Shown here: piece after piece, positions 38,719 through 59,613 of the stretch | Layout of the letters: each line of letters opens with the position of its first letter | Position numbering within the stretch: position 1 is the stretch's first letter | Origin: Yinghuangia soli | GTDB lineage: Bacteria > Actinomycetota > Actinomycetes > Streptomycetales > Streptomycetaceae | Reading direction: 5' to 3' | Length of the DNA stretch: 64,000 nucleotides | Assembly (NCBI RefSeq): GCF_021502675.1 | Contig: NZ_JAKFHA010000002.1 | Location: forward strand, 173,670-237,669 | The notes under the pieces: model-generated | Told to the model about the DNA's origin: nothing | Databases searched by the model: none | Seen by the model: only the letters and a program-made list of their open reading frames with translations | Made by a program: the position numbers and the translations under genes

Positions 38719-38814
38719 GTACGGACCTACATCGACGCGATGGTCACCGAAGAGTGGCCGCTGCTTGCCGCCGGCGAGACCTCCGCACGGCTGGACGCCA
38801 TGACCGGGAACTAG
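38719..38814 (+). pseudogene. C-terminal fragment of a DUF4239-like protein
   Basis: Thirty-one codons ending in TAG read VRTYIDAMVTEEWPLLAAGE and onward, resembling a conserved central piece of DUF4239 (bestrophin-like) membrane proteins. A stop codon lies directly upstream in frame and there is no start. It looks like debris left at the insertion site of the integrative element. Confidence 0.45.
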
Positions 38815-38823
38815 ACAACGAAC

Positions 38824-38850
38824 AGGGCCCAGGTCTATGACCTGGGCCCT
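38824..38850. terminator. tRNA-Gly terminator copy at attL
   Basis: AGGGCCCAGGTC and GACCTGGGCCCT pair around TAT, 5 bp from the tRNA 3'-end fragment. A related hairpin occurs at the right att copy (51599-51625). On the leftward strand it follows the CCA end of the tRNA sequence. Confidence 0.7.
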
Positions 38851-38855
38851 AAGTC

Positions 38856-38899
38856 TGGAGCGGGCGACGAGAATCGAACTCGCGCTCTGAGCTTGGGAA
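38856..38899 (-). other. attL: 3' end of tRNA-Gly(CCC)
   Basis: Forty-four bases identical to 51631-51674. Read leftward they give anticodon loop TTCCCAA, the T arm GCGAGTTCGATTCTCGT, acceptor CGCCCGCT and CCA. The 5' half of a tRNA does not follow. This is the crossover repeat of the element. Confidence 0.85.
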
Positions 38900-41463: not shown

Positions 41464-42384
41464 CTATCCGAAGTAGCTTAGAACGGTATCCGTCACGACG
41501 TTGGTCGCAACCCCCGTTCCAACAGCTGTGGCAGATGTCCTACCCAGGGACATAATCCGTCCTAGCCAACCTTGGACACGTGGACCCGCCGACGCGGCAT
41601 CTGGCGCCTCGGCTCGGTCGCCTGCCAGCGCCTCGCTTAGTTCAGTTAGTAGATCTTCGTTGACGCCGAGATCTCGAAGGTGCTGAACAAGCTCCTCGTC
41701 GCTCTTCGGCGTATTCACGAATGAATTTTGAGTGAAATTCGACGACCCTTGCGCCACATTGGCTGGGCCATTGATGATGGTGTTGAAGATGTCATTGCCT
41801 TTTTCGGCCGTCACTAGTGAATCTCCTGCCTTTTCTCCTGCTTCTGGGTCCTCTTGCTCCAATTTCAACGCAAAGTCGAGGACACGTGTACGGACGGCAT
41901 CGACCACTGCCTTCATCTCGGACGGCGGCACCGAATTCCAGATGGCAATGGCTCCCATGTCCGGGTACAGGGTGAACTCTCCAGCTTCCTGGCCTGCATT
42001 GAAGCTCGCTACTGCGGCACCGGGCCACGGGGAACTAAGCATTCCGTCGCCAGATCGAGCCGCCAGATCCTCGATCGCTGAAACGCTCTGGCGCAAGAAG
42101 ATCTTATCGAGATCACGAAATCTGGCGGGGAGCAATTCTGTTGCAACTTGGACATTAGAAAGACTTGAATTGAACGGCCCTAGGAACTTGCCTCTAACCT
42201 CACAAGGGATCGGGCCCCGATATTCAGGGACCTCTCCTGTATAGCCATTCAGTTCATGGCCAATCCAGGTCAGGGCTTCGGTGATTCCTAGCCTCGTCGC
42301 GAGAACTCGTGCCTTTCTGAGCAGACTCGCCGTTGAGGTTGATTCTCCGGCCGCCTCGATGATGATGTCCTGCAACAGAGCCAT
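41464..42384 (-). CDS. AbiTii-domain protein (abortive-infection-like)
   Basis: The 306-aa protein begins MALLQDIIIEAAGESTSTAS, continues LLRKARVLATRLG, then ALTWIGHELNGY and VPEYRG. This is the N-terminal AbiTii pattern (about residues 1-75). A middle region holds GNDIFNTIINGPANVAQGSS and NFTQNSF, and the C-terminus is a Gly/Ala/Thr-rich hydrophobic helix (TSATAVGTGVATNVVTDTVL) that could insert into the membrane. AbiTii proteins are linked to phage-induced growth arrest. GC is lower than the core genes. It is transcribed alone. Confidence 0.7.
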   Translation of the reverse strand: MALLQDIIIEAAGESTSTASLLRKARVLATRLGITEALTWIGHELNGYTGEVPEYRGPIPCEVRGKFLGPFNSSLSNVQVATELLPARFRDLDKIFLRQSVSAIEDLAARSGDGMLSSPWPGAAVASFNAGQEAGEFTLYPDMGAIAIWNSVPPSEMKAVVDAVRTRVLDFALKLEQEDPEAGEKAGDSLVTAEKGNDIFNTIINGPANVAQGSSNFTQNSFVNTPKSDEELVQHLRDLGVNEDLLTELSEALAGDRAEAPDAASAGPRVQGWLGRIMSLGRTSATAVGTGVATNVVTDTVLSYFG

Positions 42385-43099: not shown

Positions 43100-43930
43100 T
43101 CAGATCGGGCGGGATTGGCACCATGCGGCGGTGGCGTCGTCCTGGGCTTTGCCTCGGGGCCAGCGGGAGCCGTCGGGGTCGGCCTGTTCGGCTGCGCGGA
43201 CTTGGGCGATGAGGGCCTCGGGGCCCTGCTGCCGCAGGATGTCGAGGGCGCCTTGCCAGTCGGTGAGTTCGAAGCGGTCGACGGCTCGGGATGCTCCGTC
43301 GGATAGTGCGGTGATGCCCTGGACCTTGTTGAGGGGGATGGTGCCGGTGAGGGCTTCGGCGGCTGCGGCGGGGTTGGTGGCGGCGACCCAGAAGCCTCCG
43401 GGCTGGTTGCGGTGGGCGCGCATAGCCTCGACGTAAGCGCGGTGTGCGGCGACGTGTTCGGCAGTGCCAGCAGCAGCAGCGTCCATCGGGCCGCGGTACT
43501 TGTTCCCCACCTGGCCCTCGCGGTCGTCGGTGATGACCTGGATGCCGTCGGGCGTCTCGATGGCCAGGGTCGAGTCGGCGAGGACTAGGTACTCAAGCTG
43601 TTCGGCAACCTGGCGGGCGACGATGACCGTGGCCGAGGGGGTGCCGGGGTGGTCGAGGTCGCAGGTGTCGGCGTGCTGGGCCGCGGTGGCGGTGATGGCG
43701 TCCGCCAGGCAGTCGGTGAGCGTGCGTTCGTGGTCGGTACTGGCGCGGGTGAACAGCTCCAGGCCTAGGCGACCGACGTACCAGGCGACGGAGTGGATGC
43801 AACCGGACGGTGATCCGACCGGGGTGCCGCACCCGTCCAAGAGGACGAGTGTGGTGGGGCCTGCCGCGATGAAGTCCTCGTTGGGCTTGGCGGGGTCGCC
43901 GGGCTCGGTTGCGAACTCCATTCGCAGCAC
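43100..43930 (-). CDS. PP2C-like phosphatase carried by the element
   Basis: The 276-aa protein has NEDFIAAGPTTLVLLDGCGT (metal Asp pair as in PP2C), SGCIHSVAWYVGRLG, HADTCDLDHPGTPSATVIVA, NQPGGFWVAATNPAAAAEAL, LSDGASR and AQDDATAAW near the end. The order of Asp motifs fits the PP2C fold although overall similarity to ordinary PP2C is low. Start GTG 43930 follows GAGGAG; it sits right against the HTH gene. A clear relative is carried by the neighbouring element at 55947. Confidence 0.7.
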   Translation of the reverse strand: MLRMEFATEPGDPAKPNEDFIAAGPTTLVLLDGCGTPVGSPSGCIHSVAWYVGRLGLELFTRASTDHERTLTDCLADAITATAAQHADTCDLDHPGTPSATVIVARQVAEQLEYLVLADSTLAIETPDGIQVITDDREGQVGNKYRGPMDAAAAGTAEHVAAHRAYVEAMRAHRNQPGGFWVAATNPAAAAEALTGTIPLNKVQGITALSDGASRAVDRFELTDWQGALDILRQQGPEALIAQVRAAEQADPDGSRWPRGKAQDDATAAWCQSRPI

Positions 43931-43932: not shown

Positions 43933-44775
43933 CTACTCCTCGTCGTGGTTGTAGAACGGCGTCCGGGCGCGGACGCTGATGGGCTCGTTCGATTCGGGGT
44001 CGTACGTCACGTCGACCAGGACGGAGAATCGGCCGGTGCCGACGCGCTGGTAGAGGTCTTCGAGGTCGTGGGTGATCAGGTGGATCACGCCGAGCGAACC
44101 TTGGGGGTGGATGCCGGTGAGGACCAGAAGCAGCCCGTTGCCGTCCGGGCGCGGCAAGCGCGCCAGGTAGGCGACGTCGGTGTCCGTGGCCGGGGTGGAG
44201 TCCATGCCGGCGCGGTGGACCTCGTCGGTGGTGAGGTCGCGCAGCGTCCAGGGGCCGTCGGCGGCCTTCTCGAACCTGAACCGCGGGTCCGTGGCGAGCA
44301 CCCCGGCAACGTCCTGGGACAGGCGCGGGCCGCAGACCACGACCAGGCCGTCACGGTTGAGGTCGATCGCGCCGCTGAGCGGAATGTGCTCGAACGTCGG
44401 CTCCAGGCGGTAGGAGCGCGCGAGTTCGGCAAGTCGGTTCGCGCCGGCGAAGTCCTCGGCGGCCAGCACCGGGCGGGCGTTGCTGGCCTCCTGCTTCAGC
44501 GGGGTCGCGATGATCACGCGGCTGGTGCCCAGGAACGCGGACTCGGGCGCTGGGGCGGCCTGCTTGAGCTGGTGGATGCGCCCACGGGTAAGGCCTGCGG
44601 CGGCGGCGATCTCGGCGTACGAGAGGCCCTGGCCGTGCAGTTCGGTGATGACGCGCTGCCGAAGACGGGACAGCTCGGTGACCTCGCGTTGCGCTTCGGC
44701 AAGGCGCTCGGTGGCGGCCTTGAGCAACGCAAACGGGTCGGCGATCCTGGCGATCCGGTCGGCCTCGGTAGGCAC
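43933..44775 (-). CDS. HTH DNA-binding protein of the element
   Basis: About 280 aa. An N-terminal helix pair (LLKAATERLAEAQREVTELS) leads into a sigma-70 region-4-like HTH (LSYAEIAAAAGLTRGRIHQL). A C-terminal domain with SRVIIATPLKQEASNARPVL and SQDVAGVLATDPRF follows. GTG 44775 is chosen after AGGAGG. Two operator-like 18-mers lie 30 and 128 bp upstream. It is probably a regulator of the element or of host entry; the PP2C-like gene follows with a 2-bp gap. Confidence 0.7.
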   Translation of the reverse strand: MPTEADRIARIADPFALLKAATERLAEAQREVTELSRLRQRVITELHGQGLSYAEIAAAAGLTRGRIHQLKQAAPAPESAFLGTSRVIIATPLKQEASNARPVLAAEDFAGANRLAELARSYRLEPTFEHIPLSGAIDLNRDGLVVVCGPRLSQDVAGVLATDPRFRFEKAADGPWTLRDLTTDEVHRAGMDSTPATDTDVAYLARLPRPDGNGLLLVLTGIHPQGSLGVIHLITHDLEDLYQRVGTGRFSVLVDVTYDPESNEPISVRARTPFYNHDEE

Positions 44776-44804
44776 CTCTCCTCCTGTCTCCCCCGTCAGC
44801 GCCG

Positions 44805-44920
44805 AGTCTAGGGGGATAGACAGCACAAGGAAACGCCAGCTTCGGGCGACGCTTTCGCGGGTCGTGGACACGGCGAGCTGTCCCCTCCGGCTTCGAGTCG
44901 AGTGTATAGGGGGCTATACA
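44805..44920. promoter_or_regulatory. Two KorSA-type operators upstream of the HTH gene
   Basis: AGTCTAGGGGGATAGACA (44805-44822) and TGTATAGGGGGCTATACA (44903-44920) match the consensus of three sites before pra. The second overlaps the 3' end of the ATPase gene. They predict that the HTH/PP2C genes are in the same regulon as transfer and replication. Confidence 0.75.
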
Positions 44921-45357
44921 GCGCTAGTGGAATCAGTGTCGTGGGACGTGTTCCACGGCATGTCTGCCCAGGTGGCGTGCCTGCCGGGAGTGTCGCCGGC
45001 AGATCCCCAGGCAGTCGCGAAGTGCTCGACGATCTGGAGGCCTCGGCCGAAGTCTTCGACGTCGCCGCGGTCGAAAGTCGTGCCCGTGGGCGGCCCGTCG
45101 TCGTACACGAACACGGCGATCCCCTGATTGAGCGGGAGTAGCCACAGGCGGAAGGTGCCGCCCTGGCCGGACCTGGAGTGCAGGACCGCGTTCGTGGTCA
45201 GCTCGGACACCACGAGCGCGATGGCGTCGACGTTGGGGCAGGAGTGCAGGATCTTGCGCGTGAACTCGCGGGCAACTGCGATGGATTCGGGTGCGCCGGG
45301 AAGCTGGAGGAACCAGCCTTCCTCGGGGGCTTCCTTGAGTTGCTGGGGATGATGCAT
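44914..45357 (-). CDS. RsbW-like ATP-binding regulatory protein
   Basis: The 147-aa protein has the HATPase fold of anti-sigma kinases: ALVVSELTTNAVLHS (N-box Asn), VFVYDDGPP (G1-like Asp) and FGRGLQIVEHFATAWG (Gly-rich lid). ATG 45357 follows GGGAGG. It could phosphorylate an anti-anti-sigma partner or simply bind ATP. It is divergent from the KorSA-like gene and shares its promoter region. Confidence 0.8.
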   Translation of the reverse strand: MHHPQQLKEAPEEGWFLQLPGAPESIAVAREFTRKILHSCPNVDAIALVVSELTTNAVLHSRSGQGGTFRLWLLPLNQGIAVFVYDDGPPTGTTFDRGDVEDFGRGLQIVEHFATAWGSAGDTPGRHATWADMPWNTSHDTDSTSAV

Positions 45358-45412
45358 GTCGGGATCCTCCCGATGATCTCCGCATGGCAATGATCACTTT
45401 CCGTGACCTCGT

Positions 45413-45434
45413 ATCCGAGGTTGCAAGCTCGGAT
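45413..45434. promoter_or_regulatory. Inverted repeat in the korSA-like promoter region
   Basis: ATCCGAG and CTCGGAT surround GTTGCAAG, with TTGCAA at the centre. It lies 43 bp upstream of the GntR start and may be a regulatory site for either divergent gene. Confidence 0.45.
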
Positions 45435-45476
45435 GCAGGCTTGTCAACCTGTGCGCAGGATTCGCAAGGGGGCAGC

Positions 45477-46223
45477 GTGGCAGAGGCGGCAGGACAGCCG
45501 GCGTACGCACGGGTCGCAGACGTGCTGCGGAGCGAAATCACCTCCGGGGTATGGCCGGTGGGTGCCAAGCTGCCGAGCGTCGCGCAGCTTGAAGTGCGCT
45601 TTGGTATGAGCGAACAGCCGGTCCGGGCAGCGCTGCGTCTGCTGGTCGGAGAGGGCTTGGTGGAGGGGCGGGCCGGTAGCGGGACGTTCGTTCGCGACCG
45701 GGGCAAGGTGCTGCGATTCGCGCGGACCCGGCGTCCTGGGCAGGGCGGGCCGCTGTCGTCGGCCGACGTCGCGGAAGGGGCGCGTATTGCCTGGTCGCAC
45801 AGCTCTCAGCGGGCGTTCGCCACGGCCGGGCTGGCCGTGCGGCTCGGTATCGAACTGGGCGACGCGGTTCAGCAGACGCGCTACCGCTGCACGGTCGACG
45901 GGGCTCCGGTGCAGCTGGTGACCAGCTGGGAGCCGCTGGCGATTGTCGGTGGAACGGGAGTGCTGCTGCCGGAGGATGGGCCGTTGTGCGGTGCCGGTGT
46001 GGCGGCTCGGATGGCTGCGATCGGCTATTCGGTGACGCGGGTCGTGGAGGAAGTGGGCGCACGGGCTGCGACGAAGGCTGAGGCGGAGGGCCTGGCTCGG
46101 CGGGTCGGCCTGGCGGTGCTCGTGGTGGAGCGCACGAACTGGGCCGGCAAGCGGGCGGTCGAGACTGCGGACATCGTCATTCCGGGTGACGGGCATCGGC
46201 TCGTCTACGAACTCCCCGGCTAG
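45477..46223 (+). CDS. GntR-family regulator, KorSA-like
   Basis: The 248-aa protein has a GntR winged helix (KLPSVAQLEVRFGMSEQPVRA, about residues 35-75) and a UTRA-like C-terminal effector domain. GTG 45477 after AAGGGGG is preferred to the upstream 45384. In pSAM2 the KorSA repressor shuts off pra and so replication and transfer. The position directly upstream of pra supports the same job. It is the best candidate to bind the 18-bp operators. Confidence 0.82.
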   Translation: MAEAAGQPAYARVADVLRSEITSGVWPVGAKLPSVAQLEVRFGMSEQPVRAALRLLVGEGLVEGRAGSGTFVRDRGKVLRFARTRRPGQGGPLSSADVAEGARIAWSHSSQRAFATAGLAVRLGIELGDAVQQTRYRCTVDGAPVQLVTSWEPLAIVGGTGVLLPEDGPLCGAGVAARMAAIGYSVTRVVEEVGARAATKAEAEGLARRVGLAVLVVERTNWAGKRAVETADIVIPGDGHRLVYELPG

Positions 46224-46262: not shown

Positions 46263-46370
46263 TGTACACCCCCCTAGACACTTGCGGGATGCCGCTCCTA
46301 CCTTCGATGTACATCCCCCTAGACAACGTCGCTCGGGGTGGACAGCTCCGGCTGTCTAGGGGGGTCTACA
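46263..46370. promoter_or_regulatory. Three evenly spaced KorSA-type operators before pra
   Basis: Sites at 46263-46280, 46308-46325 and 46353-46370, read on one strand or the other, are TGTCTAGGGGGGTGTACA, TGTCTAGGGGGATGTACA and TGTCTAGGGGGGTCTACA. They are exactly 45 bp apart. The last ends at the pra ribosome site. Confidence 0.85.
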
Positions 46371-46386: not shown

Positions 46387-46785
46387 ATGGCGATCAAGCT
46401 GGCGATTCCGGTGGCCTTCACGGACGTGTTCCCGGTGGGGGCGTACGCGACCAAGGTCGAGCCGGTCTCCGACTTCGAGGCGTCCAAGAGCGGTCAGCAG
46501 GTCCAGGCGCGCGACAAGGCGACGGGGCTCCCGATGTGGGTCGTCACTGTGTCCGACCCGGACCCCGACGCTCGCGACGCGTCCGTGAAGGTCAAGATCC
46601 CCGCGTCCGTGGCGCCGGTGCTGCCGGAGGAACTGCCCGGACTCCCGTTCCGGCCGGTCGAGTTCGACGGGATGACCGTCACGCCCTGGGTGAACGGGTC
46701 GGGGCGGCTGGCGTACTCGTTCCGCGCCGCGGGCCTGCACGCGCCGACGGGCGCCGGGAGCAAGCAGGCGGGCAAGGCGGCCTGA
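46387..46785 (+). CDS. pra: Pra-like activator of replication, integration and excision
   Basis: The 132-aa protein has the Pra pattern: IPVAFTDVFPVGAYATKVEP, VQARDKATGLPMWVVTVSD, DASVKVKIPA, LPFRPVEFDGMTVTPWVN and SGRLAYSFRA. In pSAM2-type elements Pra switches on rep-xis-int and transfer. GAAGGAG precedes the ATG. Three operators in the promoter point to repression by the KorSA-like protein. Confidence 0.85.
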   Translation: MAIKLAIPVAFTDVFPVGAYATKVEPVSDFEASKSGQQVQARDKATGLPMWVVTVSDPDPDARDASVKVKIPASVAPVLPEELPGLPFRPVEFDGMTVTPWVNGSGRLAYSFRAAGLHAPTGAGSKQAGKAA

Positions 46786-46897
46786 CCGCAGAGGAGTTCG
46801 TACGCGGTCCCGGTGCCCCGTGACTTTGGCGGGTCTGGGCACTGGGACCGCTCCCGATCAAGAGACCTGACGATCTATCGAAGGGGTGTCCCCAATC

Positions 46898-48241
46898 ATG
46901 GCAACGTTCCAGCGCTTGGGGCGGCGCGGGGTCGCGATCGTCGCGGCGGTGCTGTTCCTGATCTACACGGTCGCCGAGGCGGCGGCCGGTTCGAAGGCGA
47001 CCACGGTCGTCTTCCTCGGCATCGGGCTGGGCCTGGTGCGGTGGTGGTTCTTCTCGTTCGCCGGCCGGGTGCGGCGCGGCTGGCCGAAGCTGGCCAAGGC
47101 CCTCGGACTGTGGCAGCAGGACCCGATCAAGCGGCTCAACGAAGAGTTCTCGTACGCCTGGCCGAAGATCACCAAGGTGAAGCAGGTGCCCGGCGGCTAC
47201 CTGGTGCGGGTGAAGCTGCTGCCTGGCCAGACGCCCTCGGCGCTTGGTGACCACACGGACGGGCTTGCACATGCCTGGCGGGTGTTCCGGGTCGATGCGT
47301 CCTCACCTGCCCGGGGCGTCGTGGTGCTGCGGGCATGGGTGGCGGACCCGTTGGACAAGCCGTTCGGTCCGGCCGAGATGGGCATGCCGGGCCTGCTCGA
47401 CCGGCATGAGACGCCTGCTGCACCGCCAGTGAAGGAACTGCCCGCACCGGCTCGGGATCCTTGGGCGCCGAACTTCTCCTCGGTGGAGTTGGGGCGGTGT
47501 GACGACGGGTCGCCGTGGGTGCTGCGGCTGCACGGGACGCACGTCCTGGTCGCCGGGGTTACGGGGGCGGGCAAGGGCTCGATCCTGTGGGGCGTCACCC
47601 GCGGCCTGATGCCTGCGGCCCGTGCCGGGCTGGTGGAGCTGTGGGCTCTCGACCCGAAGCGGATGGAGCTGTCCTACGGCCGGGCACTGTTTCAGCGGTA
47701 CTCGTCGGATGCCGCCGAGATGGTCGAGATGCTCGAAGACGCGGTGGCGGAGATGTCCGCGCGGGCGCACAGGTTCGCGGGCAAGGTCCGCACTCATGAG
47801 CCCTCGGTGGACTGCCCGTTCGTGGTCGTGATCGTGGACGAGTTGGCGTTCCTCACTGCGTACCAGCCGGACCGTGATCTGCGGAAGCGGGCGGATGCGG
47901 CGATAGCGACGCTGACGAGTCAGGGCCGCTCGGTCGGGTTCTGCGTCCTCGGTGCACTCCAGGATCCGCGTAAGGAGGTCATGAACCTCCGGAACCTGTT
48001 CCCGGACCGCATCGCGCTGCGCCTGGACGAACCGGCGCAGGTCGACATGGTGTTGGGTCAGGGTGCGCGGGACCGCGGCGCGGAAGCCGACCTCATCTCC
48101 CCGATCCCGTCGGTCGGCGCGGGGGTCGGATACGTGAAGCGCGAGACGCACCCCGAACCGGTGCGGGTGCGTGCGGCGTACGTCTCCGATGCCGACATCG
48201 ACCGGATGGTCGGCGACGTCACGCCGGGCGGTGCGGCATGA
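46898..48241 (+). CDS. FtsK/SpoIIIE-type DNA translocase (conjugal transfer)
   Basis: This 447-aa protein has two N-terminal spans (VAIVAAVLFLIYTVAEAA and TTVVFLGIGLGLVRWW), then a P-loop ATPase with Walker A GVTGAGKGS (about residue 222) and Walker B FVVVIVDELAFL (about 308). AICE translocases of this type move double-stranded DNA between mycelia. The ATG at 46898 is preferred to GTG 46886. It overlaps the next gene by 4 bp. Confidence 0.9.
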   Translation: MATFQRLGRRGVAIVAAVLFLIYTVAEAAAGSKATTVVFLGIGLGLVRWWFFSFAGRVRRGWPKLAKALGLWQQDPIKRLNEEFSYAWPKITKVKQVPGGYLVRVKLLPGQTPSALGDHTDGLAHAWRVFRVDASSPARGVVVLRAWVADPLDKPFGPAEMGMPGLLDRHETPAAPPVKELPAPARDPWAPNFSSVELGRCDDGSPWVLRLHGTHVLVAGVTGAGKGSILWGVTRGLMPAARAGLVELWALDPKRMELSYGRALFQRYSSDAAEMVEMLEDAVAEMSARAHRFAGKVRTHEPSVDCPFVVVIVDELAFLTAYQPDRDLRKRADAAIATLTSQGRSVGFCVLGALQDPRKEVMNLRNLFPDRIALRLDEPAQVDMVLGQGARDRGAEADLISPIPSVGAGVGYVKRETHPEPVRVRAAYVSDADIDRMVGDVTPGGAA

Positions 48242-48570
48242 GCTGGGGTGTGGACATGGCCGGCGGGGCGGACGTGTTGGGGATCGTCGCGGACTTCCTC
48301 GTGGCGCACCCTGCTCTGCCGGAGCTGGTGGGCGTCCAGGTGACCTGGCACCACGCCGACAAGGCCTGGCAGGTCAACGTGCAGTTGGCGGGCGGAAACG
48401 TGACCGGCTTGGCCGGTTGGGCGGCGGTGCTGCGGGGCCCGGTGACGACGGTGGTCGACGGCGACGGCGCGTACATCGGGCCGTACACCCGTCACGAGGT
48501 GACCGGCCTGCTGCGCGGCCACCCGGTGACGGTGTGGGCGTGCGAACGCCGTGGCCTGGAGTCGGCATGA
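48238..48570 (+). CDS. Small conserved AICE protein between translocase and Rep
   Basis: A 110-aa soluble protein with Trp-rich and beta-type character (VQVTWHHADKAWQVNVQL, VTTVVDGDGAYIGPY). Start and stop overlap both neighbours by 4 bp, so it belongs to the translocase-rep operon. Similar small genes are found at this place in other AICEs; function unknown. Confidence 0.7.
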   Translation: MSWGVDMAGGADVLGIVADFLVAHPALPELVGVQVTWHHADKAWQVNVQLAGGNVTGLAGWAAVLRGPVTTVVDGDGAYIGPYTRHEVTGLLRGHPVTVWACERRGLESA

Positions 48571-50177
48571 CCGCCGGTACGACGCGGATCGAGCGGGCCC
48601 GCATGCCCTTCGCGAAGGAGGTCGTGTGGGCCGTCGCCCTCGAACACGGCGTCTGCATCCGCCCCATCGCCCTGCGCCGTACCGACATCACGACCGGTGA
48701 AACCGAGATCGTGGATGTCCCGTGCGGGGCTACGCTGGCGAGCGTCTGCCCGACCTGCGCGGAACGCAAGCGTCAGCTGCGGATGGCGCAATGCCGCGAG
48801 GGCTGGCACCTGACCGAGGAACCGGACCTCGACGCGGACGACCCGGACGAGACACAGCGCTGGCTGGTCGAACTGCGGGCGGACGCGACCAAGGCCCACG
48901 ACGCTGCGGCCGGCACCGAACGCAAACAACTCGGCGAAGACCTGGCCGCCCTCGATGACGAGATCCAGCGGGCAGGCGTGCGGGGCAACGTCGACCCGGA
49001 CAAGGCCTCCCGGCGGGTCCGGTCGACCCGGCGGCGCAAGGACGTGACCGACCTGCCTCGGCGCCCGGTCGACGCGCGCACGGTCGGGAAGGCGTATGTG
49101 GCGCCGGACGGGAAGACGTTCCGTCCCTCGCTGTTCGTCACGCTCACCCTGCCCTCCTACGGGCGGGTCCGCTCCGACGGGACGCCGGTGGACGCGGCGT
49201 CGTACGAATACCGGCGGGCTGCGCGGGACGCGCTGCACTTCTCCAAGCTGGTGGACCGGTTCGTACAGAACCTGCGCCGGTTCGTCGGCTTCGACGTCCA
49301 GTACTTCGCCGCGGTCGAACCGCAGCGGCGCCTGGCCCCGCACGTGCACCTGGCGATCCGCGGAACGGTCTCGCGGGCGGAGCTGCGGCAGGTCGCGGCG
49401 GCGACCTATCACCAGGTGTGGTGGCCGGCCTGCGACGAACCGGCGTACGACGGCGACGCCGTACCGGTCTGGGACTCGGACCTCGGCGCCTACGTCGACC
49501 CGGACAGCGGGGAGCCGCTGGCGTCCTGGGACGAAGCACTCGATGCCCTCGACGCGGACGACGCGGCGGAACCGGTTCACGTCGCCCGGTTCGGCGTCCA
49601 GGTCGACGCGAAGGGCGTCCTGGTCGGCTCGCGGGACGCGCGCCGCTGTATCGGCTACCTGTCGAAGTACCTGAACAAGTCGGCGCACGAGTGCCACGAA
49701 CCGGCGAGCGATGCCGAACGGGCGCACGTCGACCGGCTGACGGAAGTGCTGCGGTACGAGCCGTGCTCGCCGGCCTGCGCGAACTGGCTCCGGTACGGCG
49801 TCCAACCGAAGAACGCGCGCGACGGGATGCGGCCGGGCCACTGCAAGGCCAAGGCACACCGCCGAACCCACCTCGGCTACGGCGGACGCCGCGTCCTCGT
49901 CTCCCGAAAGTGGTCCGGCAAGTCCCTGGCCGACCACAAGCAGGAGCGGCGGGCGTGGGTCCTGGACCTGGTCGGCGAAATGGCCGACCGCGGCGAAGCT
50001 CCCGACCGCTACCTGTGGGAACACGCACGACCGTCCGACCCGGACGTCCCCTCGATCTCGCATCGCCTGCTGCGGGCGGTCGCTGAACGGGTCCGCTGGC
50101 GGTCCGCCCTGGACGACGCGAAAGCACGCGCAGATGGACAGCTCGGAAGTTCGGCAACCACGGGGAGGGCGGCATGA
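48567..50177 (+). CDS. repSA: RepSA-like replication initiator
   Basis: The 536-aa protein has an N-terminal Cys pair (CGATLASVCPTC), SLFVTLTLPSYG, the HUH-type motif LAPHVHLAIRG (about residue 258) and the likely nicking Tyr in YLSKYLNKS (about 363). Late Cys/His residues follow (CSPACANWLRYG). It is a rolling-circle initiator that replicates the excised circle. It overlaps xis by 4 bp. Confidence 0.88.
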   Translation: MTAGTTRIERARMPFAKEVVWAVALEHGVCIRPIALRRTDITTGETEIVDVPCGATLASVCPTCAERKRQLRMAQCREGWHLTEEPDLDADDPDETQRWLVELRADATKAHDAAAGTERKQLGEDLAALDDEIQRAGVRGNVDPDKASRRVRSTRRRKDVTDLPRRPVDARTVGKAYVAPDGKTFRPSLFVTLTLPSYGRVRSDGTPVDAASYEYRRAARDALHFSKLVDRFVQNLRRFVGFDVQYFAAVEPQRRLAPHVHLAIRGTVSRAELRQVAAATYHQVWWPACDEPAYDGDAVPVWDSDLGAYVDPDSGEPLASWDEALDALDADDAAEPVHVARFGVQVDAKGVLVGSRDARRCIGYLSKYLNKSAHECHEPASDAERAHVDRLTEVLRYEPCSPACANWLRYGVQPKNARDGMRPGHCKAKAHRRTHLGYGGRRVLVSRKWSGKSLADHKQERRAWVLDLVGEMADRGEAPDRYLWEHARPSDPDVPSISHRLLRAVAERVRWRSALDDAKARADGQLGSSATTGRAA

Positions 50178-50404
50178 GTGCGAAGACTGATCGTCTTCTG
50201 GACGTCCGTGAGGCGGCGGAACGCATGGGCCTGAAGGGCGAGCGGTTCCCACGCCGGCTGGTCGCGGAACGGCGGATCGAGTACGTCAAGGTCGGCTCGC
50301 ATGTCCGCATCCGGGAGAGCGCGATTGACGCGTACCTGGCGGCGAACACGGTGGAGCCGATCCGGCGGCGGCCTCGGTCGCGTGCTCTGCGGAGGGCGGC
50401 CTGA
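50174..50404 (+). CDS. xis: Excisionase (Xis)
   Basis: A 76-aa basic MerR-like HTH protein (LLDVREAAERMGLKGERFPR and VKVGSHVRIRESAIDAYL). It should bend attL/attR DNA and direct the integrase to excision. It overlaps rep by 4 bp and meets int at 50404. Confidence 0.88.
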   Translation: MSAKTDRLLDVREAAERMGLKGERFPRRLVAERRIEYVKVGSHVRIRESAIDAYLAANTVEPIRRRPRSRALRRAA

Positions 50405-51579
50405 TGCCCCGGAAGCGGAAGCAGAACCGGCGTCGGTTCGGGACCATCCGGCGCCTCCCGTCCGGCAAGTACCAGGCTCGGTACACCGGTCCGGACGGCA
50501 TCCGTTACGACGCGCCCGACCTGTTCGAGACCTTTGATGACGCGGACGACTGGCTTGCGGCCAAGCAGACGGAGATCAGCCAGAAGGACTGGCGCGACCC
50601 GGACGCCGGCGCGGTGGAGTTCGAGACGTACGCGCTGTTGTGGGTCGAGGAACGCGAACTCGCGCCGACCACTATCGAGCTGTATCAGCGGCTGCTGCGG
50701 CTGCACATCCTGCCGACGTTCGGGGCCCTCGACCTGGACGAGATCACCCCGCCTCGCGTCCGGGCCTGGCACGCCGAACGCAGGAAGGCGACCGGGGCGA
50801 CGACGGTGGCGAAGTCGTACCGGCTGCTGAAGGCCATCCTGCAAACAGCTTTCGAGGATGACGAGTTGATCCGGCGCAATCCCTGCCGGATCAAGAAGGC
50901 CGGGCGAGAGAAGGCGCCGGAACGTCCCATCGCGACCGTGGCCCAGGTCGACGCGCTGGCGGAAGCGATAGGGCCGCGCTGGCGGCTGATGGTCTATTTC
51001 GCCGCGTACGCCACACTCCGGCCGGAGGAGCAAGCGGAGCTGCGGCGTGAAGACGTCGATCCGGAGACTCGGGAGCTGTCGATCACCCAAGCGTCGCCGG
51101 AACTCACGACCGGGCGGCGGGTGACAGGTGATCCGAAGTCGGAGGCTGGCACGCGCGTCGTGGTCTACCCGGCGTTCCTGGACCTCGAAGTGAAGCGGCA
51201 CCTCGACTGGTTCGCAGAGAAGGAGAATGACGGGCTGCTTTTCGTCGGCGAGAAAGGCAAGCCGTTCCGGAGGTCGACGTTCGGGCGGAAGTGGCGAAAG
51301 GCGCGTACGGCCGTCGGGTTGCCCGAGCACTTCCACTTCTACGACTTGCGGCACACGGGGAACACGCTTGCGGCGCAGTCGGGTGCGACGGTGAAGGAGT
51401 TGATGGTGCGCGCCGGGCAGTCGACAGAGCGGGCCGCGATGATCTACCAGCACTCGACGGACGAGCGGCAGCGGGAGATCGCGGAGGGCCTGGACGCTCG
51501 GGTGCAGCGGGACCGTGGCAAGGGCACGAACGCTGGCGACGGGGACGCTAAGGGCACGCCTAGGGCACGAGATGCTTAG
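50404..51579 (+). CDS. int: Tyrosine site-specific integrase
   Basis: The 391-aa protein has an arm-binding N-terminus, a SAM-like core-binding domain (about residues 60-150) and a catalytic domain. Catalytic residues: Arg in ATLRPEEQAELR (about 206), YDLRHTGNTLA (box II with Tyr in place of the first His), GQSTERAAMIYQHS (Gln for the third His, nucleophile Tyr about 347). These replacements are common in this integrase group. attR lies 51 bp after the stop. Its last codons overlap the AGGGCACG arm-like repeats. Confidence 0.9.
   Translation: MPRKRKQNRRRFGTIRRLPSGKYQARYTGPDGIRYDAPDLFETFDDADDWLAAKQTEISQKDWRDPDAGAVEFETYALLWVEERELAPTTIELYQRLLRLHILPTFGALDLDEITPPRVRAWHAERRKATGATTVAKSYRLLKAILQTAFEDDELIRRNPCRIKKAGREKAPERPIATVAQVDALAEAIGPRWRLMVYFAAYATLRPEEQAELRREDVDPETRELSITQASPELTTGRRVTGDPKSEAGTRVVVYPAFLDLEVKRHLDWFAEKENDGLLFVGEKGKPFRRSTFGRKWRKARTAVGLPEHFHFYDLRHTGNTLAAQSGATVKELMVRAGQSTERAAMIYQHSTDERQREIAEGLDARVQRDRGKGTNAGDGDAKGTPRARDA
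51521..51569. promoter_or_regulatory. Putative integrase arm-type sites, right
   Basis: AGGGCACG occurs at 51521, 51551 and 51562, within the last codons of int. The last two form the same 19-bp doublet as at 39009-39027. Confidence 0.55.
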
Positions 51580-51598
51580 AAAGGTCTAGACAACAACG

Positions 51599-51625
51599 AA
51601 GGCCCGGGTCGATGACCTGGGCCTT
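51599..51625. terminator. tRNA-Gly terminator copy at attR
   Basis: AAGGCCCGGGTC and GACCTGGGCCTT pair (one G-T) around GAT, 5 bp from the tRNA fragment, followed by TTGT. It may also stop int transcription. Confidence 0.7.
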
Positions 51626-51630
51626 TGTCT

Positions 51631-51674
51631 TGGAGCGGGCGACGAGAATCGAACTCGCGCTCTGAGCTTGGGAA
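51631..51674 (-). other. attR / junction: 3' end of tRNA-Gly(CCC)
   Basis: Identical over 44 bp to 38856-38899. The next 29 bp differ, then CTGACCTGT and GAACGC recur at the same distance as at the left copy. No tRNA 5' half follows, so this is a junction with a second element rather than the chromosomal tRNA gene. Confidence 0.85.
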
Positions 51675-51850: not shown

Positions 51851-53167
51851 CTACAGCAACAAGACTTCGTCCGGGCGCCGCTCGGTCACGATGGCAGCTT
51901 GACTGTCCTTGAGCTGTTCGAGGCAGGCAAGCAAGTCTCCGTCGTGGTCTTCGTTGGCCATGGACCGAAGCTCCGTCGCAAGCTCCCGACCGTTGATAAG
52001 CGAGATCGGGTACTGGTCCTCGACCATCTCGACCTGCGCCGCCTCCGAGAAGTACCCCGTCGTCACATACACGCCAATCCAGCCTCGTTGAAGCCTCGCC
52101 ACTATCCGGGCGATCTGCTCGGCGCTGATCGATGTGTCCGGCTTGACGCACTTGGCCTGCCCAAGCACGACCAGACTGGTACCTGCCGTCCCACGACCCA
52201 CGTCTATGCGTCCGACGAAGTCAGCGCCGCCGTCACCCGAACGACGGGTCAGCCAACCTTCGCGGTACGACGCACCAACTCCGAGGATCCGCCCGGCGAC
52301 TGCGGAGGCCACCGCCTCGAAGTCATGCTTCCGGTTGTCGAAGAACTGGTAGATCGTGAGCAGGTCCTTGGCCTCTTCGGATCCGACAGGCGGCTTCTGA
52401 TCCTTCGACTTCACTATCCGGGAACGGGCGACGCGCCGTCGGACTCGCGGCAAGGCCGAGTGCCCCTTGTCGACCCACTCTCGCCAAGCCGCCGGCGCCA
52501 GCTTCAGCGCCTCATCGATGCTGAGTCCTGGGGTTCGCCGCGCTTCGATCCAGCGCCAGTCAAGGGAGTCGTCCTCATCAGCAAGGTCGATCATGGCGAA
52601 GTCGTACACATAGTTCGCGAAGGTGTCCCGGTCTTCGCCAGCCCACTGGATGAGGCGCTCCGCGCGCTCCACCAGCCCGACCCCGCAGAACTCGACGTGC
52701 CCTTTGGGACTGCTGCCGCGTCGCACTGCCCGGAAGACCAACAGCGGCTCTGCGTAGCGTCTAACGTCAGCAGTCGGGGCACGATGGCGTTCGAATGCCC
52801 GCAGCAGAGCACCGTTGCCCTTCGTCTCGCCTACAGGCACCGCGAGGCCGGGCTTGTGGTCACCGAAGTACCTGACGTGGCCTACTTCCAAGCTGAAGAC
52901 GTCATGCCACGGTGTCTGCTCGCTGCCGGCCTTCCAGGGGCTGGACCGGATCAGAATCGCGGCGCGGCGCGGCCCAGTCGCCGCCTGTACCTCAGCGATG
53001 CTGTTGATGCCGGACTCCAGAAGGACGCGCTTCTGGCCAGGGGTGTCGGTCGCATGCCAGAAGTTGCGGAACCCGTCGACGTCCGGCGGGACCGGGTCCT
53101 TGCCTGCCGCGTAGCGAAAGATCTCACCCACACGCAGCGTCCCCGACACCGATCCAGCCTCCCCCAC
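51851..53167 (-). CDS. Modification-dependent restriction endonuclease, AspBHI/Mrr type
   Basis: The 438-aa protein has an N-terminal domain resembling the SRA-like AspBHI recognition fold (FRNFWHATDTPGQKRVLLES, LEVGHVRYFGDHKP). The C-terminal Mrr-like nuclease has SGDGGADFVGRIDVG, then LVVLGQAKC as the D..QxK catalytic pair. A late segment (WIGVYVTTGYFSEAAQVE) is also Mrr-like. It probably cuts DNA with methyl- or hydroxymethyl-cytosine. GTG start. No methylase is nearby, as expected. 51,675-51,850 and 53,168-53,495 hold nothing else I can support. Confidence 0.8.
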   Translation of the reverse strand: MGEAGSVSGTLRVGEIFRYAAGKDPVPPDVDGFRNFWHATDTPGQKRVLLESGINSIAEVQAATGPRRAAILIRSSPWKAGSEQTPWHDVFSLEVGHVRYFGDHKPGLAVPVGETKGNGALLRAFERHRAPTADVRRYAEPLLVFRAVRRGSSPKGHVEFCGVGLVERAERLIQWAGEDRDTFANYVYDFAMIDLADEDDSLDWRWIEARRTPGLSIDEALKLAPAAWREWVDKGHSALPRVRRRVARSRIVKSKDQKPPVGSEEAKDLLTIYQFFDNRKHDFEAVASAVAGRILGVGASYREGWLTRRSGDGGADFVGRIDVGRGTAGTSLVVLGQAKCVKPDTSISAEQIARIVARLQRGWIGVYVTTGYFSEAAQVEMVEDQYPISLINGRELATELRSMANEDHDGDLLACLEQLKDSQAAIVTERRPDEVLLL

Positions 53168-53942: not shown

Positions 53943-54446
53943 CTAGTAATTCCTGTAGGTTTGCCTAATGGTGACGGCCTCCTCGATCCACTTTTCGAGA
54001 TTGTCCTTAATGTATCCGTAAGTGTATTTGCTCGTCTGGTATGGAGAGTCGTATGTCTTTACGAAAGTGGAGAGTCGGCTGCCGCCGGGGGTCGTGACGC
54101 GAGAGAAGGGATTGTCGCCTTTGGGGCTCTGCTCGCCTTGGAAGTTCTCAAGCTTGTGGATGTAGATCCCAACGACCCCCTTGCCGTCCCGCCACGACTT
54201 CTCGATTTCATAGTTAATCCATCTACGTCCGGCTGTCTTGCTGCCAATCAGCACAACCGTCGCGGACCGGCCGGACATCTGGCCGTCAATCCACCGCTGG
54301 ATCGCTGGATCGCCGCCAGCCCTCACCTCCTCCCATGCGTTGTCTGATACCGAGTGGCTGCCGTCAACGATGCCTGAGTTTCTGACCATTGCTGCGCGGG
54401 AGCTGTCGGGGGCGTAGTGGAAGCTGTAGAAGACCTTGCGAGCCAT
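53943..54446 (-). CDS. ThsB-like TIR-domain protein (DUF1863 type)
   Basis: The 167-aa protein begins MARKVFYSFHYAPDSSRAAM, with VRNSGIVDG, WEEVRAGGDPAIQRWIDGQM and SATVVLIGSKTAGRRWINYE (TIR beta-D/alpha-C region with the conserved Glu). A segment common in this family, KLENFQGEQSPKGDNPF, follows. Such TIR proteins make or use NAD-derived signals in Thoeris-type phage defence. ATG 54446 after AGGAG. No ThsA (SIR2 or macro) gene is adjacent; the small membrane protein is the likely partner. Confidence 0.82.
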   Translation of the reverse strand: MARKVFYSFHYAPDSSRAAMVRNSGIVDGSHSVSDNAWEEVRAGGDPAIQRWIDGQMSGRSATVVLIGSKTAGRRWINYEIEKSWRDGKGVVGIYIHKLENFQGEQSPKGDNPFSRVTTPGGSRLSTFVKTYDSPYQTSKYTYGYIKDNLEKWIEEAVTIRQTYRNY

Positions 54447-54629
54447 GGCTCTCCTAGGGTTGTGCATCACTCGGACCCCCGGGAGCGGAGTCCGGACTCA
54501 AACGCTACGCCGTGTGGCCGACAGATGTGCTCGGAACACCCGCGAAGGTGCGGGTCGGGTTCGGCTGTGCTGCACATACCTCAGCGAACCGCGGGCAGTC
54601 ATCCTGGTGGGAGCTGAGGAGGCTCGACA

Positions 54630-55521: not shown

Positions 55522-55950
55522 TCAGAGGAGAGCGAGCCCGTCGTGAGATCGGATGGCGGGAGCGGTTCCTTCTTCCAGTGCGTCACTGACGCGCACTCGG
55601 TACGCCTCGATCATCAGGTCGTCGAGTTCGCCGCGGTGGGCCCACCGGAACTCGGTGACCTCGCTGTTCGCTGTCAGCACTCCGCTGACAGCGCGACACC
55701 GAAAGACCAGCGCGACAACGCCAATCCGCATGTTCTTGTAGACACCAGTCAGGCTGACCGGCTCGATTTCGAGGCCAGTTTCCTCGCGCATCTCGCGCCG
55801 CAACCCGTCCGTGATGGTCTCGTTCGCTTCGAGTACGCCGCCGGGAGCTTCCCAATTTCCGTTGTCCCGCCGCCGCGTGAGCAGGCAACGCCCAGCGTCG
55901 TCGACGACTACGCCCGCGACGCTGACTGAGTGCCGCGCTGGGTCTGTCAC
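55522..55950 (-). CDS. NUDIX hydrolase
   Basis: The 142-aa protein has a complete NUDIX box, GGVLEANETITDGLRREMRE followed by ETGLEI. RRRDNGNWEAPGG precedes the box and VVALVFRCR follows it. It hydrolyses a nucleoside-diphosphate-linked substrate that cannot be named. GTG 55950 overlaps the stop of the PP2C-like gene by 4 bp (GTGA), so the two are coupled. Confidence 0.88.
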   Translation of the reverse strand: MTDPARHSVSVAGVVVDDAGRCLLTRRRDNGNWEAPGGVLEANETITDGLRREMREETGLEIEPVSLTGVYKNMRIGVVALVFRCRAVSGVLTANSEVTEFRWAHRGELDDLMIEAYRVRVSDALEEGTAPAIRSHDGLALL

Positions 55951-56708: not shown

Positions 56709-57485
56709 CTACTCGGGTGCGGGGAACTCGTAGCAGAAGACGTGTCGGTCGCCTGCGACCACTGATGTGAGTACTTCCACGGGACCATCGGCGGTGAACG
56801 CGATTCGTCGCAGCTCGGCGACCGGGATGCCGGGGGAGAGGCGGAGAGCCTTCGTCTCGTCGGGCGAGGGCATACGGATGGCGATCTCCTCGCGGAACCG
56901 CTCCAGCCGGAGGCCCTTCTCCTCAAGTCGCGCGTAGCTGCCGCCGGGGCCTGTGTCCTCGTTGCGGATAGCCGTGTCGGCGACCGTTTCAAGGCGGTAG
57001 TAGCTGTCCGCGACCTGTGTGGGTTCGTCGTCGACCCAGTTGCGCCGGCGGCGTACGAAGACCGTGGTGTCGGGCTCGATGTCGAACCACTCGGCGACCC
57101 ACCTGGGAGCGGGTACGTCTTCGAGCCCGAGAATCTCCTGACCCCAGCGGCGCCCCTGTGCCTCTATCTCCGCCTCGAAGGCTGCCTTGCCCTCGGCCCG
57201 CGTCTTACGCGAGAAGCGGGCCGAACCCATGTGGATCGTGGGTGGCTGCTTCTTCACGAAGACGCCGCGGCCGCGTTCGGAGACAACGAGACCTTCCTCT
57301 TTGAGGAGCCGTACGGCCTGGCGAGCGGTCGTCGGCGACGTGCCGTACGTCCCGACCAGCACGCTTTCGGACGGAAGCGGCTTCCCAGGTTCCAGCGCCC
57401 CGCTGACGATCTGCTCGCGCAACTCGTCGGCGATCTGCCGCGACGGGGGTCGCGGGTCGGTCGGATCGATGCTCATGCGAGCCAT
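56709..57485 (-). CDS. GntR-family regulator with UTRA domain
   Basis: The 258-aa protein has a GntR winged helix (LPSESVLVGTYGTSPTTARQ, about residues 35-80) and a UTRA domain (DTTVFVRRRRNWVDDEPTQV, ...LSPGIPVAELRRIAF). ATG 57485 (or 57476) lies just below two operator-like palindromes. It faces the transfer operon at 57935 and is the probable repressor of both transcripts, the counterpart of KorSA in the first element. Confidence 0.83.
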   Translation of the reverse strand: MARMSIDPTDPRPPSRQIADELREQIVSGALEPGKPLPSESVLVGTYGTSPTTARQAVRLLKEEGLVVSERGRGVFVKKQPPTIHMGSARFSRKTRAEGKAAFEAEIEAQGRRWGQEILGLEDVPAPRWVAEWFDIEPDTTVFVRRRRNWVDDEPTQVADSYYRLETVADTAIRNEDTGPGGSYARLEEKGLRLERFREEIAIRMPSPDETKALRLSPGIPVAELRRIAFTADGPVEVLTSVVAGDRHVFCYEFPAPE

Positions 57486-57495: not shown

Positions 57496-57574
57496 CTTCC
57501 CTAGTGAGGTATTGCAGCATCGGGAGTTGTCGCGCTACGGTGACGTCACTGCCTCACTAGTGAAGCAGTGACGT
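57496..57574. promoter_or_regulatory. GntR operators of the second element
   Basis: CTTCCCTAGTGAGGTA (57496-57511) and the centre CCTCACTAGTGAAG of a 32-bp near-perfect palindrome (57543-57574) are related sites in opposite orientation. The larger palindrome has arms ACGTCACTGC and GCAGTGACGT around CACTAGTG. It probably covers both divergent promoters. Confidence 0.8.
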
Positions 57575-57841: not shown

Positions 57842-57900
57842 GGCACACACGATGTGTGCCGGGGCGACCGCCCATCCCGGCAAGGTCCGGCGGTCGCCCC
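57842..57900 (+). promoter_or_regulatory. Two consecutive hairpins before the transfer operon
   Basis: GGCACACA/TGTGTGCC with loop CGA (57842-57860) is followed at once by GGGGCGACCGCC/GGCGGTCGCCCC (57861-57900). They lie 34 bp before the GTG at 57935 and may attenuate or stabilise the mRNA. The remaining part of 57,575-57,841 shows no gene. Confidence 0.5.
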
Positions 57901-58201: not shown

Positions 58202-59613
58202 CGGAGACCTTGTACACGATGTCCGCGCACCGCCGGATGGACCGGGCGCGGATCGAAGAGGCGAACGCTGCCGCGTCGGAGCGGACCGCGCTTGCCGCGG
58301 TGGTGCAGGCGCAGGCGGCGGCACAGGTCGCCGAGATCCGCCGGCAGGAAGAACGCAGCATCCGCGCCGAGACCGGCGCGGACAAGGCGCAGGCACGCGC
58401 GGCGCGTCAGGAGCGCGTGAGCAAGGCGCTGGGGTCGGTGCGTGAGCGCCGGGACTTCGCGTTGGTCTCGGGTGTCATGGTCGCTTCGATCGGCACGGCG
58501 TGGCCGGCGCAGATGGGTTTCTACCTGGCCATGGGCATGAACCCGGTGCTCTCGGTGCTGGTCACTGCGATGACCGAGGGTGCCGCATGGGCGGGTGCCG
58601 CGATGGCCTCCAAGGCGATCGAGGACGGCGACCGCCCGGCGGGCATCTACCGGGCGATCACGTGGGGTTCGGCGTTCGCCGCGGCGGCGCTGAACTTCGC
58701 GCACACCTGGCACCGGAGCATCCCGCTTGCGTGCGTGCTCGCGCTGGCGAGCCTGCTGGGCGTCCTGTTGTGGGAGGCGTACGCGCATTCGCGCACGCAG
58801 ACCGAGGGCGGGAAGTCCGGCGCGCAGATCCGGGCCGAGATCTACCGCAAGGCGCGGTTCCGCAAGGTCTCGCGCCGGACCCGCGACCTGATCGCCGCCG
58901 TCCCCGGACTCGACCCGGACGCCGCATGGGTGATCGCGTGGCGTGCGGTCTACGGCGCCGACCCGGGCGTGACCCGTCGGACGCTCAAGCAGCACCACAA
59001 GGCGGTCAAGGCCATCGCGAAGCTTCTCGACAAGGCCCTGGAGTCGGGCGCCGAGTCGGTCGGGCTCGCCGTGCTCCAGACCCCGACTGCCACGCTCGCC
59101 GACATGGCGCCGGGCGGCACGGTCGCCGAGTCGGTCGCGTCGGTCCGCGACGCGGAGTCGTTCGCGTTCGCCGCCGCCGATCCGATCGAAGAACTCATCG
59201 GGTCGGCGGACGTCGACGTCGACGCCGACGACGACACGGGCGACGATGGCGAGTCGGTCCGCGAGTCGGGTGACGGCGCAGACGAGTCGGGCGCACGGTC
59301 GGTATCCAACCAGAAGATTTCATCTAATTCCACGCAAAACGGATCACGTCTGGGTCGGGCGACCGCTGGCCCGCGTCGGGCGACCGGTCGGGTGCCGGAG
59401 TCGGCGAAGTCGGTGGTTCCGAAGCGGAACGTCGCCGAAATGCTCGCCGAGGCACGGGAGTTGACGGCCGATTGGCCGACCGACCGACTGACGGCCGATC
59501 GCATCCGCGAGGAGGTCCGCACGTCGGCGAAGTCGGCCCGGATCCTGCGTGACACGCTGCGCGCCGAACGCGAGTCGGGCGGCGGCGCCGACGCGGTGGG
59601 GATGGCGTCATGA
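58198..59613 (+). CDS. DUF2637-like transfer/spread membrane protein
   Basis: The 471-aa protein has an N-terminal coiled coil (about residues 15-80, Ala/Glu/Arg-rich) and four hydrophobic spans (about 85-195, e.g. FALVSGVMVASIGTAWPAQM and IPLACVLALASLLGVLLW). A long cytoplasmic tail contains an acidic stretch (VDVDADDDTGDDGE). This resembles the DUF2637/Spd-type proteins of actinomycete plasmids. Its stop overlaps the next start (ATGA). Confidence 0.72.
   Translation: MTETLYTMSAHRRMDRARIEEANAAASERTALAAVVQAQAAAQVAEIRRQEERSIRAETGADKAQARAARQERVSKALGSVRERRDFALVSGVMVASIGTAWPAQMGFYLAMGMNPVLSVLVTAMTEGAAWAGAAMASKAIEDGDRPAGIYRAITWGSAFAAAALNFAHTWHRSIPLACVLALASLLGVLLWEAYAHSRTQTEGGKSGAQIRAEIYRKARFRKVSRRTRDLIAAVPGLDPDAAWVIAWRAVYGADPGVTRRTLKQHHKAVKAIAKLLDKALESGAESVGLAVLQTPTATLADMAPGGTVAESVASVRDAESFAFAAADPIEELIGSADVDVDADDDTGDDGESVRESGDGADESGARSVSNQKISSNSTQNGSRLGRATAGPRRATGRVPESAKSVVPKRNVAEMLAEARELTADWPTDRLTADRIREEVRTSAKSARILRDTLRAERESGGGADAVGMAS

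Follow-up and report, generated by a model that had tools for sequence, protein, structure and literature searches.

The KorSA-Pra control of pSAM2, in which KorSA represses its own promoter and the pra promoter (excerpts of PMC8584621), is one of the closest described counterparts of the DNA analysed here. Others are found among bacterial PP2C phosphatases. In groups IV-V of a survey of these enzymes, the motif 1 Arg is variable and motif 11 has DD in place of DN (excerpts of PMC12088040). In PstP of Mycobacterium tuberculosis, mutants of D38 and D229 lose over 90% of their activity and the Arg20 mutant keeps about 40%, i.e. a loss of ~60% (excerpts of PMC3052367). The association of a kinase, a PP2C and a vWA protein has also been described but is of another kind (excerpts of PMC7159879). 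As far as the openly licensed literature was available, we recognised no paper on a PP2C or phosphatase of AICEs, conjugative elements or plasmids or on their operators, and the word "phosphatase" is absent from the available text of PMC3218068, PMC8584621 and PMC9513070.

Here, we analysed 64,000 nucleotides of Yinghuangia soli (hereafter the window, i.e. the whole of this stretch), which include two genes for PP2C-like proteins, PP2C-A and PP2C-B. They belong to a regulator-phosphatase module of actinobacterial mobile elements that is real, conserved and, as far as our literature searches reach, undescribed. The element carrying PP2C-A (element 1) has the order of pSAM2, i.e. GntR regulator, Pra-position gene, FtsK, RepSA and integrase. 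It differs from the KorSA-Pra system in that an operator-like site follows another regulator, HTHS, and not GntR, and in having PP2C as an added component.

Two tandem elements at a tRNA gene

An 89-bp direct repeat is present in three copies, two in the window (Table 1) and one 9.7 kb beyond its end, at positions 9703-9791 of the following stretch (L175), inside an intact tRNA-Gly(CCC) gene. The middle copy is 89% identical to the left one and the L175 copy 97%. Since these repeats delimit them, the PP2C genes are carried, as originally predicted, by two elements, namely a tandem pair of AICEs integrated at tRNA-Gly(CCC). Element 1 (~12.9 kb) carries PP2C-A, HTHS, HATPase, GntR-A, the Pra-position gene, FtsK, RepSA and integrase genes; it thus has the integrase, the Rep, the FtsK-type transfer gene and the flanking att repeats of a tRNA that characterise AICEs. 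Within the window, element 2 (~22.2 kb) carries restriction, TIR, HIT, NUDIX, PP2C-B and GntR-B genes, and past the window (in L175) FtsK, Prim-Pol and its own integrase. Hence, it also has an integrase, a Prim-Pol replication gene, FtsK-type genes and att repeats at a tRNA. In two other Yinghuangia genomes (L179 and L180), the same site is occupied by AICEs in which PP2C was not matched.

Table 1. Positions of the main features of both elements in the window
Feature	Position	Strand	Remark
Left attachment repeat, element 1 (89 bp, 3' part of tRNA-Gly(CCC))	38811..38899	.	repeat search
PP2C-A, diverged PP2C-fold protein, element 1, 276 aa	43100..43930	-	start probably 43921
HTHS, sigma70-region-4-like HTH and alpha/beta C-terminal domain	43933..44871	-	start probably 44775
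Operator-like site before HTHS, 3 mismatches	44805..44822	-	pattern match
Operator-like site before HTHS, 3 mismatches	44903..44920	-	pattern match
RsbW-like HATPase (HATPase_c_2)	44914..45390	-	Pfam
GntR-UTRA regulator A (GntR-A), KorSA-like by position	45384..46223	+	start probably 45477
Putative operator site 1, TAGACA at -35 position	46263..46280	+	pattern match
Putative operator site 2	46308..46325	+	pattern match
Putative operator site 3, inverted, ends 16 bases before start codon 46387	46353..46370	-	
132-aa protein, Pra position of pSAM2-type elements	46387..46785	+	label by position only
FtsK/SpoIIIE-type transfer protein, TraSA-like	46886..48241	+	
RepSA replication initiator	48567..50177	+	RepSA match 7.7e-99
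Tyrosine integrase, element 1	50404..51579	+	
Middle attachment repeat, element 1 end / element 2 start	51586..51674	.	89% identical to left copy
NUDIX protein overlapping PP2C-B end (compare Pif of pSAM2)	55522..55950	-	
PP2C-B, diverged PP2C-fold protein, element 2, 249 aa	55947..56696	-	
GntR-UTRA regulator B (GntR-B), immediately upstream of PP2C-B	56709..57485	-	
Second GntR-B site copy, CTCACTAGGGA	57498..57508	-	
Palindromic site CTCACTAGTGA(A) before GntR-B	57553..57564	.	kept in Yinghuangia and Embleya loci

The probable start of HTHS is the one at which most of its relatives begin. The first three residues of PP2C-A are doubtful because the gene caller starts it at 43921 and its relatives begin near there. 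The 132-aa protein at the Pra position has no match in Pfam.

Both elements carry defence cargo. Element 1 encodes an AbiTii-like protein (41464-42384, minus strand; PADLOC 2.2e-33), and element 2 a methyl-directed restriction enzyme (51851-53167, minus strand; PADLOC mREase_II 3.8e-214) and a TIR-like ThsB protein (53943-54470, minus strand; PADLOC ThsB 3.2e-69). Furthermore, two consecutive genes of the phage integrase family (523 and 818 aa) are located at 59610-63630 on the plus strand. We take the first of them to be fused behind the start of a PAPS-reductase-like ORF, perhaps by insertion of a RIT-like recombinase cluster.

Fold and active site of the PP2C-like proteins

PP2C-A and PP2C-B are related (39% identity, 103 of 261 columns, E 3e-52) and share the motifs GCxHxxxW, HADTCDL, NQPGGFWVA, DG.SR and DDAT, as the original prediction had it. 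PP2C-A barely passes the cut-off of 24 bits of Pfam PP2C_2 (PF13672), with 24.7 bits, PP2C-B reaches 44.0 bits, and 14 of the 18 members of an 18-row family alignment match PP2C_2 at E 0.1. NCBIfam has no name for either protein, a sequence-profile search of the PDB at E 1 matched no PP2C, and hhalign comparisons of the 18-row alignment with single PP2Cs were insignificant. The fold emerged from an AlphaFold model of PP2C-A computed with the 18-row alignment as input (pLDDT 93.9, pTM 0.91). The first-listed matches of this model among solved chains are PP2C-fold proteins, with PstP of M. tuberculosis (1txo, 2cm1) leading (Foldseek E 1.1e-10; Z 21.4, rmsd 3.8, 212 residues, 20% identity). By this model, the proteins have a diverged PP2C fold, as predicted, and a non-PP2C fold was not seen.

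Motifs were mapped by a MAFFT alignment with the PstP orthologue of the same genome, which matches PstP at 2e-79. Another candidate, L161, proved not to be PstP and was ruled out. Five metal-ligand Asp are kept in PP2C-A: D19, D32, D119, D211 and D264. Through the orthologue, the last four correspond to D38, D118, D191 and D229 of PstP, where D118 and D191 are the residue numbers that we assume. The metal-binding Asp of motifs 1, 2, 5, 8 and 11 are invariant in the 18-row alignment. The phosphate-binding Arg of motif 1, equivalent to Arg20 of PstP, and the GGH motif (DGxGGH) are lost, and motif 11 reads DD instead of DN. Since these classical motifs, which mark PP2C groups I-III, are missing, we compared the family with groups IV-V and PP2C_2. 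It shares with them the PP2C fold, the metal Asp, the DD of motif 11 and the loss of the motif 1 Arg (excerpts of PMC12088040), a likeness of motifs and not of placement in a tree. Besides, the family of the window has a CxH...HxxxC set, an RN..GGF block and the pairing with a regulator of mobile elements.

Conservation was assessed in 106 rows, drawn from 156 PP2C genes (those of kept loci with a length of at least 220 and a score above 60). All five metal Asp are kept in 83 of them: 22/23 of the HTHS-coupled, 6/6 of the GntR-coupled and 55/77 of the other rows. The metal ligands kept in 28 of the 29 regulator-coupled rows make phosphatase activity most likely; the missing motif 1 Arg counts against it, since the same loss cost PstP about 60% of its activity (excerpts of PMC3052367). 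One clade (17/106 rows; loci L062, L069, L073, L079, L083, L086, L088-L090, L092-L096 and L098-L100) has Asn in place of D211 and may consist of inactive or altered enzymes.

The Cys/His set is nearly invariant in the 106 rows (C44 in 101, H46 in 101, H86 in 103 and C90 in 102). C44, H46 and C90 are jointly missing from three Amycolatopsis rows, and the model of PP2C-A shows isolated bridges at positions 44 and 90. These three observations together suggest that C44, H46, H86 and C90 form a metal or disulphide site.

A role in phage-triggered modification, which had also been proposed, found no support: neither PP2C matched PHROGs at E 0.01, and PADLOC, i.e. models of known defence systems, gave 0 families at E 0.01 for PP2C-A, PP2C-B and HTHS. 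The single match of PP2C-B in a phage collection, MT835726.1 (L185), was rejected as a phage copy. This sequence has 75% GC and carries, by our reading, urease-accessory-like genes; it is probably a piece of bacterial chromosome filed as phage. In a library of viral folds, matches with E under 0.001 were PP2C-fold proteins of giant viruses, entomopoxviruses and one Myoviridae sp., a likeness of fold only.

Regulator partners and mobile linkage

As predicted, both PP2C genes neighbour regulators, HTHS and GntR-A in element 1 and GntR-B in element 2. HTHS has a sigma70-region-4-like HTH, detected in 16 of 17 members (E 0.1), and a C-terminal alpha/beta domain (HTHS model, pLDDT 84.6), which in fold most resembles the N-terminal domain of GH67/GH115 glycosidases and BcsB (Z 11.5, 126 residues). 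It lies directly upstream of PP2C in all 25 HTHS-bearing loci of the set fetched by PP2C; in 23 of them, the gap measures between -4 and +19 bases. Because this adjacency depends on finding loci by PP2C, we also counted from HTHS. On plasmids, 22 of the 24 records with HTHS, counting near-duplicates, have PP2C next to it. Among 61 genomes, this holds for all five matches under E 1e-20, including one decayed copy and one fusion that lacks the PP2C start. In a 396-genome sample of the phylum, where six candidates were scored per genome and the count may therefore be too low, PP2C adjoins at 6 of 9 places; our genome and G024 belong to both genome sets. The 61 genomes also have five weaker HTHS matches (E 2.5e-8 to 5e-4), most of which cover just the HTH, and none of these adjoins a PP2C. 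HTHS without PP2C thus occurs in 2/24 plasmid records and at 3/9 places of the phylum sample, one of these loci ending 0.3 kb past HTHS; the five solitary cases are in Nocardia farcinica, on a Streptosporangium plasmid and, at three places, in a single genus (two genomes). Furthermore, the distances of HTHS and PP2C correlate (r 0.90 over 21 pairs, 0/5000 permutations), shared descent remaining in this mirror-tree test.

Members of the PP2C family are present in 50 of the 61 genomes (our own included, with either query), and several branches sit in constant host neighbourhoods. Their constant chromosomal neighbours are presumably a conservon-like cluster (13-14 loci), a pirin-like gene (7) and a Kribbella-type epimerase (12). 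The original prediction of a subfamily specific to mobile elements must therefore be rejected for the family as a whole, and stands for a part of it: the regulator-coupled copies, with HTHS or GntR, are the mobile ones. Mobile markers (integrase, Rep, FtsK or SpdB-like, all homologues of genes of the window) lie near PP2C in 14 of 19 long HTHS-coupled loci, four further loci being plasmids picked beforehand, and in 3 of 6 long GntR-coupled loci, one further being a plasmid; the window is counted in both classes. Loci without a called regulator partner have such markers in 3 of 82 cases and none in 79, which differs from the HTHS class with p 1.3e-10 (Fisher); these 82 include L070, which has an HTHS ORF, and L061 and L064, which have a GntR ORF, all missed or mis-started by the gene caller. 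Corrected for descent, nine independent pairs gave on average 6.8 in the same direction and 0.0 in the opposite one (median p 0.016, range 0.008-0.125), with only L070 of these three loci mended. The predicted link to mobile elements in other genomes is supported for these copies. The protein had thus been seen correctly and its mobile specificity overstated; the pairing with a regulator across elements and the operator are new.

On a quick tree of the family, which gave long-branch warnings, seven label changes are needed for the HTHS-coupled copies and three for the GntR-coupled ones, so coupling has changed several times. PP2C was matched in 34 plasmid records, eight of which were examined at the match, one of them a Novosphingobium outgroup. 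HTHS adjoins in 22 of the 34, two have an annotated GntR upstream, and at least one plasmid, of 0.54 Mb (L187), has an uncoupled PP2C with neither HTHS nor GntR upstream. RepSA is encoded in 8 of the 61 genomes and only the copy of the window is near a PP2C.

In some Streptomycetaceae, two members of the family lie ~3 kb or less from each other (L143, L146 and L151 in G025, G012 and G004, and G033:C800). In Yinghuangia seranimata (G001:C31:29600-30696, L177), an HTHS-PP2C pair is decayed: the PP2C piece has two stops and the HTHS piece is 91% identical to HTHS of the window.

Operator-like sites and the proposed control

An 18-bp site, TGTASAYCCCCCTAGACA, occurs in three copies, 45 bases apart and the third inverted, between GntR-A and the Pra-position gene, and in two weaker copies before HTHS, i.e. 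five matches in the window against 0.01 expected. Since the pattern was derived from the window, the latter was left outside the 33 HTHS loci in which it was searched, as were L188-L191, the fusion L034/L115 and overlapping copies. In 16 of these 33 loci, 42 sites were found. The other 17, without a site at 3 mismatches, include short loci, the diverged plasmid type and also the full-flank Actinomadura locus L075. The site was absent from six AICEs without HTHS (117 kb) and from 90 PP2C loci without HTHS (1.62 Mb), at least one place being counted twice among the latter (L042, L132).

Searching from the site in the 396 genomes (2 mismatches) gave 29 matches in 24 genomes, against about 40 for the reversed pattern. 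Two or more sites within 100 bases occur only in G000, G024 and G248, all with HTHS-PP2C within ~2.5 kb. G259 has two HTHS-PP2C loci and one site match distant from both. At 3 mismatches, our genome has 11 matches against 8 for the control, with all three exact matches falling within element 1. Upstream of plasmid-borne HTHS, repeats exceeded all 20 shuffles in pRL1 and pXL100, and did not in pVMKU and the P9-2B-2 plasmid.

In 12 array promoters, chosen for bearing sites (window, Kitasatospora, Actinomadura and two other Streptomycetaceae), the arrangement does not vary: a pair of plus sites, spaced by 43-46 bases, precedes a minus site. The first site ends in TAGACA and is followed 17-18 bases on by TAnnnT in all 12, this being TACCTT in nine. 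Like a repressor, a protein bound to this array would mask both the -35 and the probable start region. HTHS is a likelier binder than GntR because HTHS, and no adjoining GntR match, accompanies the exact sites of seven Actinomadura loci, and because the site is absent from six AICEs with a GntR match and without HTHS.

We propose that regulator and PP2C together make up a control module of two genes in integrative and plasmid elements of actinobacteria, with an operator and a transfer switch linked to phosphorylation, a proposal to which we give even chances. HTHS would bind TGTASAYCCCCCTAGACA before its own gene and in the plus, plus, minus array that spans the promoter of the transfer genes; repression of both operons is the most likely effect. 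PP2C, encoded in the same operon as HTHS and most likely a working metal-dependent phosphatase, would set the activity of HTHS, its candidate substrates being HTHS itself or a protein acting on it. Excision and transfer would thereby be linked to a Ser/Thr phosphorylation signal. In this view, HTHS probably acts as the repressor of transfer and PP2C, encoded with it, as its modulator, and PP2C-B with GntR-B may follow the same scheme with a different regulator and site. That the HTHS-PP2C module itself encodes no kinase counts against this proposal; in AICEs, the HATPase is a candidate kinase. More tentatively, conjugation could be gated by a sigma-region-4-like repressor with its own operators and a PP2C, possibly zinc-bearing, that reads host Ser/Thr phosphorylation to release transfer, an arrangement evolved at least twice with the unrelated regulators HTHS and GntR. 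If true, this would tie actinobacterial conjugation to protein phosphorylation, and such elements could be found with the 18-bp site as a marker. The regulator-phosphatase pair comes with a defined DNA site, so that the site, a candidate binder and a candidate enzyme can all be named.

Other explanations can be considered. The HATPase, the PP2C-fold protein and the sigma-region-4-like DNA-binding protein stand in a row in many loci and recall RsbW-RsbV-RsbU. In such partner switching, the RsbW-like HATPase would be both kinase and anti-regulator, PP2C an RsbU/SpoIIE-like phosphatase resetting its target, and HTHS a sigma-like output. Indeed, 17 loci have a HATPase cluster near PP2C, 15 of them at position -2; the HATPase of the window matches HATPase_c_2 and weakly RsbA/RsbW, and four of 18 PP2C members weakly match SpoIIE. 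However, HTHS matches only sigma region 4, among the neighbours scanned no STAS protein was seen adjoining or stood out in the recurrent clusters, and HATPases are also found near GntR in AICEs without PP2C (L179, L181 and L184). Moreover, none of four scanned plasmid loci with HTHS (L035, L036, L038 and L039) had a match to the HATPase type of the window, "ATP-binding proteins" being annotated further off in L036 and L039. We therefore consider partner switching unlikely.

Exclusion is quite unlikely as well. PP2C would then block redundant transfer in the recipient like Pif, and different cassettes would allow tandem elements to coexist. PP2C-B lies between GntR and a NUDIX gene, and Pif is a NUDIX protein (excerpts of PMC3218068). 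In addition, two elements with different modules share one tRNA, and the control region of other RepSA elements (L182-L184) contains NUDIX and, by sequence reading, XRE-like genes. Nevertheless, no NUDIX gene directly adjoins HTHS-PP2C in the loci scanned, pRL1 having one ~6 kb off, and the NUDIX cluster of the window is found in only five loci, at +1 in four.

Alternatively, PP2C could dephosphorylate host targets in Hanks-kinase or sigma-factor pathways and so prepare the host for transfer. The chromosomal relatives without regulator partner in many genomes, which imply that the enzyme can work without such a partner, favour this explanation, but the mobile copies are tightly coupled to element regulators and co-diverge with them, and we consider it quite unlikely too. 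Least probable is a PP2C fold that binds the regulator or a ligand and acts by binding alone. The loss of the phosphate-binding Arg and the GGH motif and the clade with D211N favour it, and the five Asp kept in nearly all regulator-coupled rows count against it.

In element 2, the proposed pairing of PP2C with a regulator comes with a different palindrome, CTCACTAGTGA, located before GntR-B itself. Another palindrome, GGCACACACGATGTGTGCC, lies at 57842-57860, close to where the gene at 57854 starts, and palindromes matching it are present in the Y. seranimata and Embleya loci (L041 and L043).
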